A DNA stretch of 64,000 nt. It comes from Anaerolinea thermophila. GTDB lineage: Bacteria; Chloroflexota; Anaerolineae; Anaerolineales; Anaerolineaceae. The stretch spans positions 62,001-126,000 of the forward strand of contig NZ_DYHZ01000005.1 in assembly GCF_020723905.1 (NCBI RefSeq), read 5' to 3'. The position numbers and the translations under genes are program-made. Positions 14,860 through 17,526 of the stretch are shown here, piece by piece (the stretch's first letter is position 1; each line of letters opens with the position of its first letter). The notes below the pieces were generated by a model. That model ran no database searches, was not told the DNA's origin, and saw only the letters and a program-made list of their open reading frames with translations.

Positions 14860-14887
14860 TGTTCCTCCCTGGAAGACCGGAGAAAGG

Positions 14888-14960
14888 CGCCCCTGGAGAG
14901 ATTCGAACTCTCAGCCAACTGCTTAGAAGGCAGGTGCTCTGTCCATTGAGCTACAGGGGC
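14888..14960 (-). tRNA. tRNA-Arg (anticodon TCT)
   Basis: On the minus strand a 73-nt cloverleaf can be drawn. It has acceptor stem GCCCCTG/CAGGGGC, D arm GCTC/GAGC, anticodon loop CTTCTAA giving anticodon TCT, and a T arm GAGAG-TTCGAAT-CTCTC. The anticodon stem has one mismatch at its outermost pair. The CCA end is not encoded. An extended -10-like TGGTAAAAT lies about 19 nt upstream. Confidence 0.93.
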
Positions 14961-15073
14961 ACACCATTTTATTTGATTTTACCATGAAAAATTTTCGCCG
15001 TTTGACATCAGTACAAAAAAACTATCCCGTTTCCAGAAGAATATTTCATGAATCTGTTTCCCTTCACTATTTG

Positions 15074-15079
15074 TATAAT
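15074..15079 (+). promoter_or_regulatory. -10 box giving a leaderless mRNA for the cytidylate-kinase-like gene
   Basis: A perfect TATAAT ends 6 nt before the ATG at 15086, so transcription should begin at or within the start codon. No good -35 is seen at 16-18 nt and no Shine-Dalgarno sequence fits. This box also argues against a longer protein starting at 14984, because the -10 would then lie inside the coding frame. Confidence 0.55.
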
Positions 15080-15085
15080 AAATTT

Positions 15086-15682
15086 ATGAATGCAATCACA
15101 ATCTCTCGGCAAATGGGGGCTTGGGGCAGGAAGGTGGCGGAAGCCACTGCTGAGTTATTAGGGTATAAGTTGGTCTGGCGAGAGGTGATCAATCAGGCAG
15201 CGTTGAGGGCGGGAGTTCCTGAAGTCGCTCTGGCGGCAATTGATGAATTTGGCTTTATGGGCATAAAACCCAGAGAAGAAGATTTGCAGGCGTATCATCG
15301 TGCTGTACGTCAAATCATGGAAGAACTGGTGAGGGAGGGCAGGGTGGTGATTATTGGCAGAGCGGGGCAGTGCATTTTGGCAGATAATCCCCGTGTTTTT
15401 CACATACGCGTCATTGCTCCCATAGAGGTAAGGATTTCCCGGGTTGCAGAAGAGCAAAAAATGCCCCCGGAGCAGGCAAGAATCCTGATTGAACGCAGTG
15501 ATCGTTTCAGGCAGGATTATCTGAAACGGTTTTATCACGCCAATATTGATGATCCGACCCTGTATGATCTGGTGTTGAACACGCATCGCATTGATATCAG
15601 ATGTGCAGCGCATTTGATTGAATCCTTAGTCAGAAACCATGAGGCTGAATCGTCTCCCGGAGATTTTCACCTTGGACTCTGA
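15086..15682 (+). CDS. Cytidylate kinase-like family protein
   Basis: This 198-residue P-loop kinase-like protein begins MNAITISRQMGAWGRKVAEA. The GAWGRK stretch is where the cytidylate kinase-like family (AAA_26/COG1102) has its phosphate-binding loop. Further landmarks are a VIIGRAGQCIL segment, an RxxR-type lid region and a DLVLNTHRID ending. The true substrate of this family is generally not established. I chose the ATG at 15086 over an upstream in-frame ATG at 14984 because homology starts here and a -10 box sits directly upstream. The 3' end overlaps the next gene by 44 nt. Confidence 0.8.
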   Translation: MNAITISRQMGAWGRKVAEATAELLGYKLVWREVINQAALRAGVPEVALAAIDEFGFMGIKPREEDLQAYHRAVRQIMEELVREGRVVIIGRAGQCILADNPRVFHIRVIAPIEVRISRVAEEQKMPPEQARILIERSDRFRQDYLKRFYHANIDDPTLYDLVLNTHRIDIRCAAHLIESLVRNHEAESSPGDFHLGL

Positions 15683-16052
15683 AAAAAAATCGCCCCAATT
15701 TGTTCATCCAATTGAAGAGGTTTTTGCGCGGATTCTGGATTTCTATGGAATCCAGTGGGAATACGAGCCGCGAACTTTCCCGTTGAAATGGGATGACGAG
15801 GGGAATGTGCTTGAAGCCTTTACACCAGATTTCTATCTACCAGAACAAAATTTGTTTGTTGAGTTGACTACGCTTCGCCCAAGGTTAACCACCAGGAAAA
15901 ATCGCAAATTAAAACGGTTAAAGGAACTGTATCCTGAAATCAATATCAAACTTTTTAAGAGAAGAGAATTGAGAAATATGATGTTGCGATTTGGACTGCG
16001 CGAAGAAGTGGAGAGAATCATTGGAACGGATGCACAGGAGATGGATGAATAA
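15639..16052 (+). CDS. Small PD-(D/E)xK nuclease-like protein, function unknown
   Basis: The 137-residue protein contains E-A-F-TPDFYLPEQNLFVELTT followed by RLTTRKNRKLKRLKELYPEINIKLF. The arrangement of an Asp, a downstream E-x-T and a conserved Lys on consecutive strands resembles the PD-(D/E)xK nuclease core found in very-short-patch-repair-like proteins. I infer a nuclease fold only, and no activity can be asserted. It overlaps the kinase-like gene by 44 nt and ends 3 nt before hpt, so the three genes are probably one transcript. No clear ribosome binding site is present, which fits translational coupling. Confidence 0.65.
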   Translation: MRLNRLPEIFTLDSEKKSPQFVHPIEEVFARILDFYGIQWEYEPRTFPLKWDDEGNVLEAFTPDFYLPEQNLFVELTTLRPRLTTRKNRKLKRLKELYPEINIKLFKRRELRNMMLRFGLREEVERIIGTDAQEMDE

Positions 16053-16055
16053 CCT

Positions 16056-16616
16056 ATGGAAAGAGAAACATGGTTAAAAGATATTCAGGAAGTCCTGTTC
16101 ACTGAGGAGCAGATTCGAGAGCGAGTGAAAGAACTGGCGCGTCAAATCTCGGTAGACTATCAGGATAAAAATCCTATCCTGATAGGGGTTCTTAAGGGGG
16201 TGATGTGCTTTTTACCGGACTTAATTCGTGAAATGAGCATTCCTGTAGAAGTGGATTTTATTGCGGTATCCAGTTATTCGACTGAATCGCGAGATAAGGG
16301 AGTGGTTCGCGTCGTCAAGGATTTAGATCTGCCATTGATGGATCGGCATGTCTTGTTTGTGGAGGATGTAGTTGATACCGGTTTGACCCTTCATTACTTG
16401 CTACGGAACCTGCGAGCACGCAATCCGGCAAGTTTAGAGGTATGTACCCTCTTAAATAAAAATCCCCGCAGACTGGTAAATATTCCCATCCGTTACATAG
16501 GTTTTGAAGTGCCTGATTACTTTGTGGTGGGATACGGGCTGGATTTTAATGAGCAGTATAGAAACCTGCCGTATATCGGGATTTTGAAGCCTTCGATCTT
16601 GTTTGGGAAAGATTAA
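16056..16616 (+). CDS. hpt: Hypoxanthine phosphoribosyltransferase
   Basis: This 186-residue purine salvage enzyme converts hypoxanthine (and usually guanine) plus PRPP to IMP or GMP. The type I phosphoribosyltransferase PRPP-binding motif VLFVEDVVDTGL lies at residues 99-110. The flexible-loop region SSYSTESRDKG is at 72-82, and the purine-contact segment PDYFVVGYGLDFNEQYRNL lies near the C-terminus. The length is normal for Hpt. It is followed by the structured RNA at 16624. Confidence 0.95.
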   Translation: MERETWLKDIQEVLFTEEQIRERVKELARQISVDYQDKNPILIGVLKGVMCFLPDLIREMSIPVEVDFIAVSSYSTESRDKGVVRVVKDLDLPLMDRHVLFVEDVVDTGLTLHYLLRNLRARNPASLEVCTLLNKNPRRLVNIPIRYIGFEVPDYFVVGYGLDFNEQYRNLPYIGILKPSILFGKD

Positions 16617-16623
16617 AAAGTAA

Positions 16624-16784
16624 GGGGCCTCAAGTAACCCGTCCAGCCTTCTCTTCAAATTTGCCTAGTCTTTTACTCTAGTTTTGTTCACTGCGGTACC
16701 GCTGTGCATCCGGTCCGCTCCCAAAACCTAATCGGTTTATGACTGAGGCTTTTTAGAGTGCTTATCGAATTTCTTGAGGCTCCC
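16624..16784 (+). ncRNA. ssrS: Candidate 6S RNA (SsrS)
   Basis: This 161-nt stretch folds by eye into one long, interrupted hairpin. The closing stem pairs GGGGCCTCAAG (16624-16634) with CTTGAGGCTCCC (16773-16784), with one bulge. A large open bubble follows. An inner stem pairs CCTAGTC with GACTGAGG and TTTTG with CAAAA. The apical hairpin is GCGG-t-ACCG-CTGTGCATC-CGGT-CCGC. The rod with a central bubble, about 160-190 nt length and a GCAT...CGGTCCG...AAAACCT core are the hallmarks of 6S RNA, which mimics an open promoter and binds sigma70-RNA polymerase. A hairpin terminator follows at 16790. The assignment rests on a manual fold and recalled consensus, not a covariance search. Confidence 0.6.
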
Positions 16785-16789
16785 TTTAT

Positions 16790-16821
16790 CCGAAGGATTT
16801 TTCCTTCGGCATTTTCATCTT
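16790..16821 (+). terminator. Rho-independent terminator after hpt/6S RNA
   Basis: An 8-bp perfect stem CCGAAGGA (16790-16797) and TCCTTCGG (16802-16809) encloses a TTTT loop and is followed by CATTTTCATCTT. The T-tract is broken, so efficiency may be moderate. Confidence 0.6.
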
Positions 16822-16882
16822 AAACGATAAAAGATTAAAATTCAAGATGGTTAAGATTAGAAAATTCGCTTTTGCCCATTCG

Positions 16883-17482
16883 CTATTTTTTTGGGAGAAA
16901 GATACAGGAGATTTCTGTGCCTTGATGCATGCATTGATGTTGTCCGTAGGAAATTCCTGTCAGCCGTTCGAGCATCTTTTGATCGAACGCACATATCTGT
17001 GGATGGTGTTTCCATAAAGAGGCGTATGGGCAACTTCGGAGGATGATCCTGGGACCGTTCTGGGTTGCTTCCCACCGGGGGGCGTAATGAAGTTTCTCTA
17101 AAACTTCCATAGCACGACGAAGTTTTGTGGGCAGGGGGTATGCTGGACTTTCGGGAAAGATCTGCCCGGCAAGGCTTTCCCAGATGTGAGGTTCAGGGCA
17201 TTGAGGCACAATTTGTTTGAGAATACCCAGTATCAACATTTCTGTATTCTCCGGGTGATTTGTGGGAGCAAGGCGGTATCTTTGGGGGGGGCGCCCAACT
17301 TTACCGGGCGAATTTAAACCCGGAGGAATTTCTTCAATCCGATTTTCTTGCAAGAGAATCTTTAAATGATACCTTATGTCGACAGGTGAAAGCCCTGTGT
17401 GGCTGGAAATTTCCCTTGCAGTCAGAACAGGTGATTTTAAAAACAGGTTCAGAATTTTTTCTCTGGTTGTGGAATCAGCCAT
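16883..17482 (-). CDS. SufR-like winged-helix regulator with Fe-S cysteine motif (SufR1)
   Basis: The 199-residue protein has an N-terminal winged-helix domain (residues 5-70, with TAREISSHTGLSPVDIRYHL as recognition region and GRPPQRYRL wing). The C-terminal domain has C151-x12-C164 in CPY...HPQICAFD, then C184 and C193. This layout matches SufR-type repressors, whose [4Fe-4S] cluster controls DNA binding. It is paralogous to the regulator at 44095. I start it at the ATG at 17482, 6 nt after a TATAAT box, rather than at the upstream TTG, which overlaps the promoter. It is transcribed divergently from nuoB across a perfect inverted repeat, so it probably regulates itself and the nuo genes. 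Confidence 0.82.
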   Translation of the reverse strand: MADSTTREKILNLFLKSPVLTAREISSHTGLSPVDIRYHLKILLQENRIEEIPPGLNSPGKVGRPPQRYRLAPTNHPENTEMLILGILKQIVPQCPEPHIWESLAGQIFPESPAYPLPTKLRRAMEVLEKLHYAPRWEATQNGPRIILRSCPYASLWKHHPQICAFDQKMLERLTGISYGQHQCMHQGTEISCIFLPKK

Positions 17483-17488
17483 AGAGAC

Positions 17489-17494
17489 ATTATA
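17489..17494 (-). promoter_or_regulatory. -10 box of the SufR1 gene (leaderless)
   Basis: On the minus strand a perfect TATAAT ends 6 nt before the ATG at 17482. The -35 zone lies inside the inverted repeat at 17499-17526 and is AT-rich without a clear TTGACA. Confidence 0.55.
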
Positions 17495-17498
17495 ACGC

Positions 17499-17526
17499 AA
17501 TTTAATAAAATAATTTTTATTAAATT
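17499..17526. promoter_or_regulatory. Perfect 12-bp inverted repeat: candidate SufR1 operator
   Basis: The left arm AATTTAATAAAA (17499-17510) and right arm TTTTATTAAATT (17515-17526) are exact reverse complements around a TAAT spacer. The repeat lies between the SufR1 -10 box and the nuo -35 box. A regulator bound here would block the SufR1 promoter directly and could affect the nuo promoter 8 nt downstream. That SufR1 is the ligand is inferred from position. Confidence 0.6.

Follow-up and report, generated by a model that had tools for sequence, protein, structure and literature searches.

Structured bacterial RNAs that belong to none of the known families are uncommon, and some of them have proved to be parts of new ribonucleoproteins (RNPs) or catalysts. 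OLE and the raiA motif are structured bacterial RNAs outside the housekeeping set, and Y RNAs combine a conserved bulged terminal stem with a variable interior. A part of PMC11706538 presents the raiA motif as a structured bacterial RNA. The locus described here lies in a window of 64,000 nt from the genome of Anaerolinea thermophila (the whole stretch of DNA that was analysed) and had been put forward, in a sequence-only reading, as a plus-strand gene for 6S RNA (RF00013) behind hpt, the gene of a hypoxanthine phosphoribosyltransferase. It shares with 6S RNA a free-standing gene, paired ends and, in the short Anaerolinea form, a similar length, but it differs in giving no 6S covariance match in the loci scanned, in its conserved terminal helix, in the predicted branching of its longer members, and in the presence of a separate, real 6S gene. 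With OLE and the raiA motif it shares the character of a lineage-conserved structured RNA without a conserved ORF, and it differs from them in having no Rfam match above cut-off in the window and the 28 homologous loci scanned, and in being known so far from Anaerolineales only.

According to our comparison, the minus strand between about 16810 and 16613 probably carries a free-standing structured RNA of a new Anaerolineales family that would act in an RNP or hold a protein, a reading to which we assign a probability of roughly 0.6. The gene, its strand, its terminal helix and its synteny with hpt are supported by comparison of the homologous loci, and the features of the window are collected in Table 1.

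Table 1. Features of the RNA locus and the adjoining gene cassette, in window coordinates
Feature	Position	Strand	Basis
Predicted ncRNA gene, about 165-198 nt	16613-16810	-	Alignment with homologues carrying a promoter at the corresponding place
Predicted ncRNA ends	5' near 16810; 3' in U-rich stretch, about 16613-16618	-	Both placed by alignment
Core of the RNA, closed by the conserved terminal helix	16622-16786	-	Statistics of the 17-pair helix, 35 sequences
Terminal helix, 5' strand, with one-base bulge and purine-A mismatch	16768-16786	-	Alignment
Terminal helix, 3' strand, GGTTACTT... block	16622-16639	-	Alignment
Hairpin: 5' hairpin of the RNA (minus strand); possible terminator of hpt (plus strand)	16790-16809	.	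Present in the window, G001 and G004
Presumed promoter, TTGAAT-N17-TAAGAT, 8/12 of consensus	16817-16845	-	Same position as in two congeners
hpt, hypoxanthine phosphoribosyltransferase, convergent with the RNA gene	16056-16616	+	TIGR01203, 209.2 bits (cut-off 150)
137-aa nuclease-fold protein, T7 endonuclease I-like, Thr77 at the lysine position	15639-16052	+	Sequence and profile matches; co-occurrence with the RNA
Cytidylate kinase-like protein, third cassette gene	14984-15682	+	PF13189, E 1.2e-42

Occurrence in Anaerolineales

Homologues of the RNA were found in 37 Anaerolineales genomes of three families, and sequences from 35 of these make up the alignment. A DNA search of 61 relatives gave some match at E <= 1 in 31, strong only in the genome of the window (G000) and in G004 and G001 of the same genus, where the match again lies behind hpt, and short in the others; the same search did not find the RNA in the congeners G002 and G003, both incomplete genomes. 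A covariance model built from the three Anaerolinea sequences and run on 147 genomes of the family added one further genus, again behind hpt. Downstream of the 29 closest hpt orthologues in the family (E <= 9.2e-69), conserved ends with a variable interior were present in 26, while nothing was found behind hpt in G083 and G027 and the contig ends too early in G062. A pattern of the 5' end matched 44 of 400 genomes of the order, 31 of them RNA carriers, and the remaining 13 showed no 3' end within 480 nt. This pattern added G027 and G098 within the family and, from two other families, seven genomes more, and inspection behind hpt added G267 and G310. Its sensitivity can be judged from these last two, which it missed among the 33 carriers of the order sample, and from the 31 carriers also reached through hpt, 29 of which it matched.

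Furthermore, a search of contigs with an anchor word returned 43 stretches, of which four were read; L044 and L061 are Anaerolinea homologues, the former from the cultured strain Anaerolinea thermolimosa IMO-1, and L040 and L055 are chance matches. Two viral contigs (L076 and L220, one from each of two scans) were likewise judged on reading to match by chance. In a sample of the phylum, a pattern of the 3' end, which detects 30 of the 35 homologues but not the copy in the window, was found in 2 of 251 genomes, G007 of the family and G552, and the latter match was judged by eye to be chance. With this sample and these imperfect probes, the RNA is so far restricted to Anaerolineales.

Partial or repeated copies were observed at two places. 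At about 1170-1250 of L162 (G170:C19), the first 18-19 bases of the RNA and a TATAAT-like box are present upstream of an apparent protein gene, and the remainder of the RNA is absent. In L164 / L130 (G100:C153), a second, near-identical copy of the 5' part of the RNA stands, together with its promoter, at a contig end, and could be a duplicate gene or an assembly duplicate.

A conserved helix around a variable interior

A closed fold of about 161 nt after hpt had been noticed from the sequence, and it is indeed predicted for 16624-16784 (161 nt), in a stretch directly adjoining the hpt stop codon (16614-16616). On the plus strand, 16617-16790 folds at -54.5 kcal/mol with a z of -5.5, and none of 200 shuffles was as good. 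The view that this stretch has no protein-coding explanation also holds, as inspection of 12 of the 35 homologues gave 0-31 aa for the longest ATG-ORF on the RNA strand.

In the alignment, the ends of the RNA would pair into an irregular terminal helix of 17 pairs. Over the 35 sequences, 97.1% of the 595 cells are paired against 92.6 +/- 0.5 in shuffles, and slid versions of the helix reach at most 62.7%. Cells with a double change number 31 against 10.1 +/- 2.3, and the covariation score is 0.212 against 0.127 in shuffles, where the cells count related sequences and not events. Two of the five measures show no excess, namely the pairs with any double change (5; 135 of 500 shuffles as high) and the further pair types (16; 78 of 500 as high). 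The locus thus shows a conserved helix with compensatory changes, as looked for in a structured ncRNA family. The irregularities of the helix are themselves kept: a one-base bulge (A in 30 sequences, C in 5), a mismatch of a purine opposite an invariant A and, past two A-U pairs, two pairs that are U-G in 33/35 and 35/35.

The interior, on the other hand, is variable, and the core ranges from 163 nt in the window to 343 nt in L150. It appears to be a fast-evolving set of hairpins, rod-like with a small branch in the predicted fold of the short Anaerolinea form and probably branched in the longer members, as single-sequence predictions suggest. Within clades, the interior fold receives some support from pairs with a double change, which in raw counts were 13 of 54 (A5, 8 sequences), 3 of 55 (A6, 7 sequences) and 5 of 47 (A7, 3 sequences). 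The motifs GCGG, GCAT and CGGTCCG, taken earlier as a 6S-like apical core, do not bear that comparison: their letters vary among the three Anaerolinea sequences with the pairing kept, and the stretches invariant among the three lie outside them.

These invariant stretches, of 17 and 23 nt, could be taken to indicate a trans-acting small RNA in which conserved stretches base-pair with mRNAs. However, the terminal helix takes in part of the 17-nt stretch, most of the 23-nt stretch is engaged in pairs of the predicted fold, and across families conservation sits in the terminal helix only, so we regard such a mode of action as unlikely. In the reading that we prefer, that of an RNA acting in an RNP or holding a protein, the fixed terminal helix would be the docking site.

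The neighbourhood of hpt

The RNA directly faces hpt, 3' to 3', in 33 of the 37 genomes. Among nine genomes of other families with this type of hpt (E <= 3e-71), it does so in seven; the other two, G055 and G296, have hpt on the same contig at a distance of about 1.8 and 2.4 kb from the RNA. Where measured, in 26 of the 35 loci, the two genes are 4-98 nt apart, and in four genomes of genus 8 (L090, L097, L100 and L101) the hpt stop lies inside the 3' strand of the RNA. Beyond hpt, the gene of the 137-aa protein is present in all 26 family loci with the RNA facing hpt, and the cytidylate kinase-like gene in 25 of them. In G027 and G098, the RNA faces, again 3' to 3', a gene other than hpt, whose product we take to be LON-substrate-binding-domain-like, and this indicates that the RNA is an independent gene.

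Such a tight layout, including the stops within the RNA in genus 8, would suit a cis-antisense regulator, a convergent transcript that would act on the stability or termination of the hpt mRNA by overlapping its 3' end. Against this, the overlap with coding sequence is nil or about 20 nt, the partner gene is unrelated in G027 and G098 and distant in G055 and G296, and plain antisense has no need of a conserved irregular helix. This explanation therefore seems improbable, somewhat more so than pairing in trans.

An ArsR-like winged-helix gene (PF01022) lies upstream of the RNA on the minus strand, at 16883-17500 of the window; among the loci compared, the three Anaerolinea genomes alone showed such a gene close to the RNA.

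Orientation of the gene

The strand on which a fold is noticed need not be the one that carries the gene, and the homologues place this gene on the minus strand. A promoter of the form TTGACT/A-N16-17-TATAAT, or close to it (at least 10/12, at most 80 nt upstream), precedes the RNA on the minus strand in 30 of the 35 sequences, and upstream of the opposite reading none of the 35 reaches 10/12. In 28 of the 30, 6-9 nt separate the end of the promoter from the conserved 5' end, and L147, L150 and the three Anaerolinea sequences have extra sequence between the two. A sigma70-type promoter is thus supported for most members by comparison, and from it the RNA would be expected to be steadily expressed. 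The promoter of the window itself falls below the scan threshold and is alone no better than chance (180 of 200 shuffles of the upstream 80 nt reach 8/12); it is presumed from its position, which is that of TTGACT-N17-TACGAT and TTGACT-N17-TACTAT in the congeners. The promoters of these congeners, G001 and G004, reach 9/12, with 28 and 44 of 200 shuffles as good.

The pairs of the terminal helix point in the same direction, with 95 G-U against 8 A-C among the 595 cells on the minus strand, where A-C stands for a would-be G-U of the plus strand. Furthermore, the minus strand folds better, by energy and by z, in all eight tested of the 35 sequences. The plus strand also folds better than its shuffles, as is expected of a reverse complement. 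The gene and the fold seen by the sequence-only reading behind hpt therefore stand, with homologues and compensatory changes behind them, whereas the plus strand is contradicted by the promoters, the G-U excess and the folding alike. With the gene on the minus strand, the simple terminator that had been seen to follow the RNA, a hairpin that does exist, comes to stand where the RNA is predicted to begin, and may nevertheless act as a terminator of hpt.

The same evidence bears on the possibility of a plus-strand element, such as a structured 3' UTR or an attenuator of the hpt operon. That the fold begins at the hpt stop codon, faces hpt so regularly, is followed by a terminator-like hairpin on the plus strand and exceeds its shuffles there would all be accounted for, but the G-U/A-C asymmetry, the promoters, the better folding of the minus strand and the position away from hpt in G027 and G098 leave this very improbable.

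Comparison with known RNA families

The Rfam models, run on both strands of 16000-17500, gave six matches at E 0.07-9, all below cut-off and none to 6S up to E 10, and no 6S match was obtained in the 28 of 37 homologous loci that were scanned. None of the 4227 Rfam families was above cut-off in the window and these 28 loci, barring the RNase P gene that L144 carries next to the RNA. Three matches to NsiR1 in the homologous loci (E 6.6-8.4) touch the 3' edge of the RNA and are far below cut-off. A genuine 6S gene is found at G000:C4:97694-97869 (RF00013, 80.7 bits, cut-off 46.4), and the other housekeeping RNAs of the genome lie elsewhere as well, RNase P RNA at C13:330065, SRP RNA at C10:224055 and tmRNA at C1:245033, with no covariance match of these three at the RNA locus. 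It is thus supported that the RNA is not the 6S RNA, RNase P RNA, SRP RNA or tmRNA of this genome, and all four identities were rejected. Of the two findings that together were to speak against the earlier proposal, no covariance hit and no compensatory changes, only the first was made; since compensatory changes are present, the RNA stands and only the 6S name falls.

If this were a second 6S RNA, mimicking a promoter, binding sigma70 RNA polymerase and serving as template for product RNAs, the rod-like shape and similar length of the short Anaerolinea form would fit, and a part of PMC7726162 reports two 6S RNAs in some bacteria. Against this identity speak the failure of the 6S models to match the window or the 28 loci on either strand, the clear 6S gene at another locus, the cross-family conservation in the terminal helix and the predicted branching of the longer homologues, and we give it very little weight. 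A bacterial Y RNA bound by Ro60 through its terminal stem would resemble the present RNA, by analogy, in the bulged stem and variable interior, but 40 of the 41 genomes tested, including 31 of the 32 RNA carriers among them and G000, lack a TROVE/Ro60 domain, which makes this identity scarcely credible. No description of the RNA was found in the literature searched, a search outside which most subscription papers lie.

Two observations concern single genomes. G001 alone of the 41 has a TROVE/Ro60 protein (L168, G001:C61), and in G055 one small contig carries both the RNase P RNA gene (L144:2613-3018, minus strand, G055:C149) and the gene of the present RNA.

A nuclease-fold protein as possible partner

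If the RNA of this new family acts in an RNP or holds a protein, the best candidate partner could be the 137-aa nuclease-fold protein encoded just beyond hpt, because it occurs in the same genomes as the RNA and has lost its catalytic lysine, a loss expected of a fold used for binding and not for cutting. The protein is present in 36 of the 37 genomes with the RNA and in none of 42 genomes without detected RNA, where absence of the RNA was judged by the exact 5' pattern for 39 and by model R1 alone for G002, G003 and G005; it is the only cassette member counted in this way. It was not found in G098 (77% complete), which has the RNA. G083 has the protein and no RNA beside hpt, its whole genome having been searched only with the insensitive model R1. 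Only in G027 are the two both present and apart. As their genes are mostly neighbours, one deletion could remove both.

The protein matches T7 endonuclease I in sequence (PDB 3cae, E 1.9e-4) and by profile (E 4.1e-4), and PF05367 at E 0.0011, below the Pfam cut-off. Of 28 extracted neighbour proteins 26 were aligned, L083 being left out for its wrong boundaries and L218 for an overlong start, and E26, D64 and E75 are invariant in the 26. The likeness to T7 endonuclease I and the PD-(D/E)XK fold thus lies in the sequence match and in the acidic residues that are kept, and the difference lies in the catalytic lysine by the second acidic motif, which is replaced by threonine (Thr77) in 26/26 and also in the left-out homologues where readable (L218, and G004 for L083). 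The junction-bound structure 2pfj has alanine at the lysine position in the profile alignment. A part of PMC9547003 indicates that the active-site mutant D55A of T7 endonuclease I still docks on junctions.

Structural comparison was made with a predicted model (pLDDT 78.9, three sequences). Foldseek gave nothing at E <= 0.001 (best 0.067), with T7 endonuclease I at rank 7, and the enzyme is not among the 50 VIA matches listed. Mitoribosomal proteins of T. gondii and Tetrahymena take the first places in the VIA list (Z 8.2, 7.9 and 7.0), which also contains Bax1, Vsr and TnsA, although by the tool's own note values up to Z 8.2 may reflect only a common arrangement. The mitoribosomal proteins on this list are presumably RAP proteins. 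In RNA-binding FASTK proteins, according to a part of PMC12687428, the C-terminus is homologous to PD-(D/E)XK nucleases. PADLOC returned one weak match (E 0.0028). A T7-endonuclease-I-like fold is thus weakly indicated and is carried by the sequence match, the structural support being weak.

It can be proposed, tentatively and at odds that we consider low, that the endonuclease-I-like protein without its lysine is joined to the fast-evolving RNA in a dedicated RNP, perhaps together with the kinase and the phosphoribosyltransferase, in which a nuclease fold has turned to RNA binding and the whole is gained and lost as a unit. As the gene and its strand, the terminal helix, the type of promoter and a candidate partner are now in hand, the function of the RNA is directly testable, and strain IMO-1 offers a cultured carrier. 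Just upstream of the cassette of kinase, nuclease-fold and hpt genes, a tRNA-Arg gene (tct) lies on the minus strand at 14886-14960 of the window.
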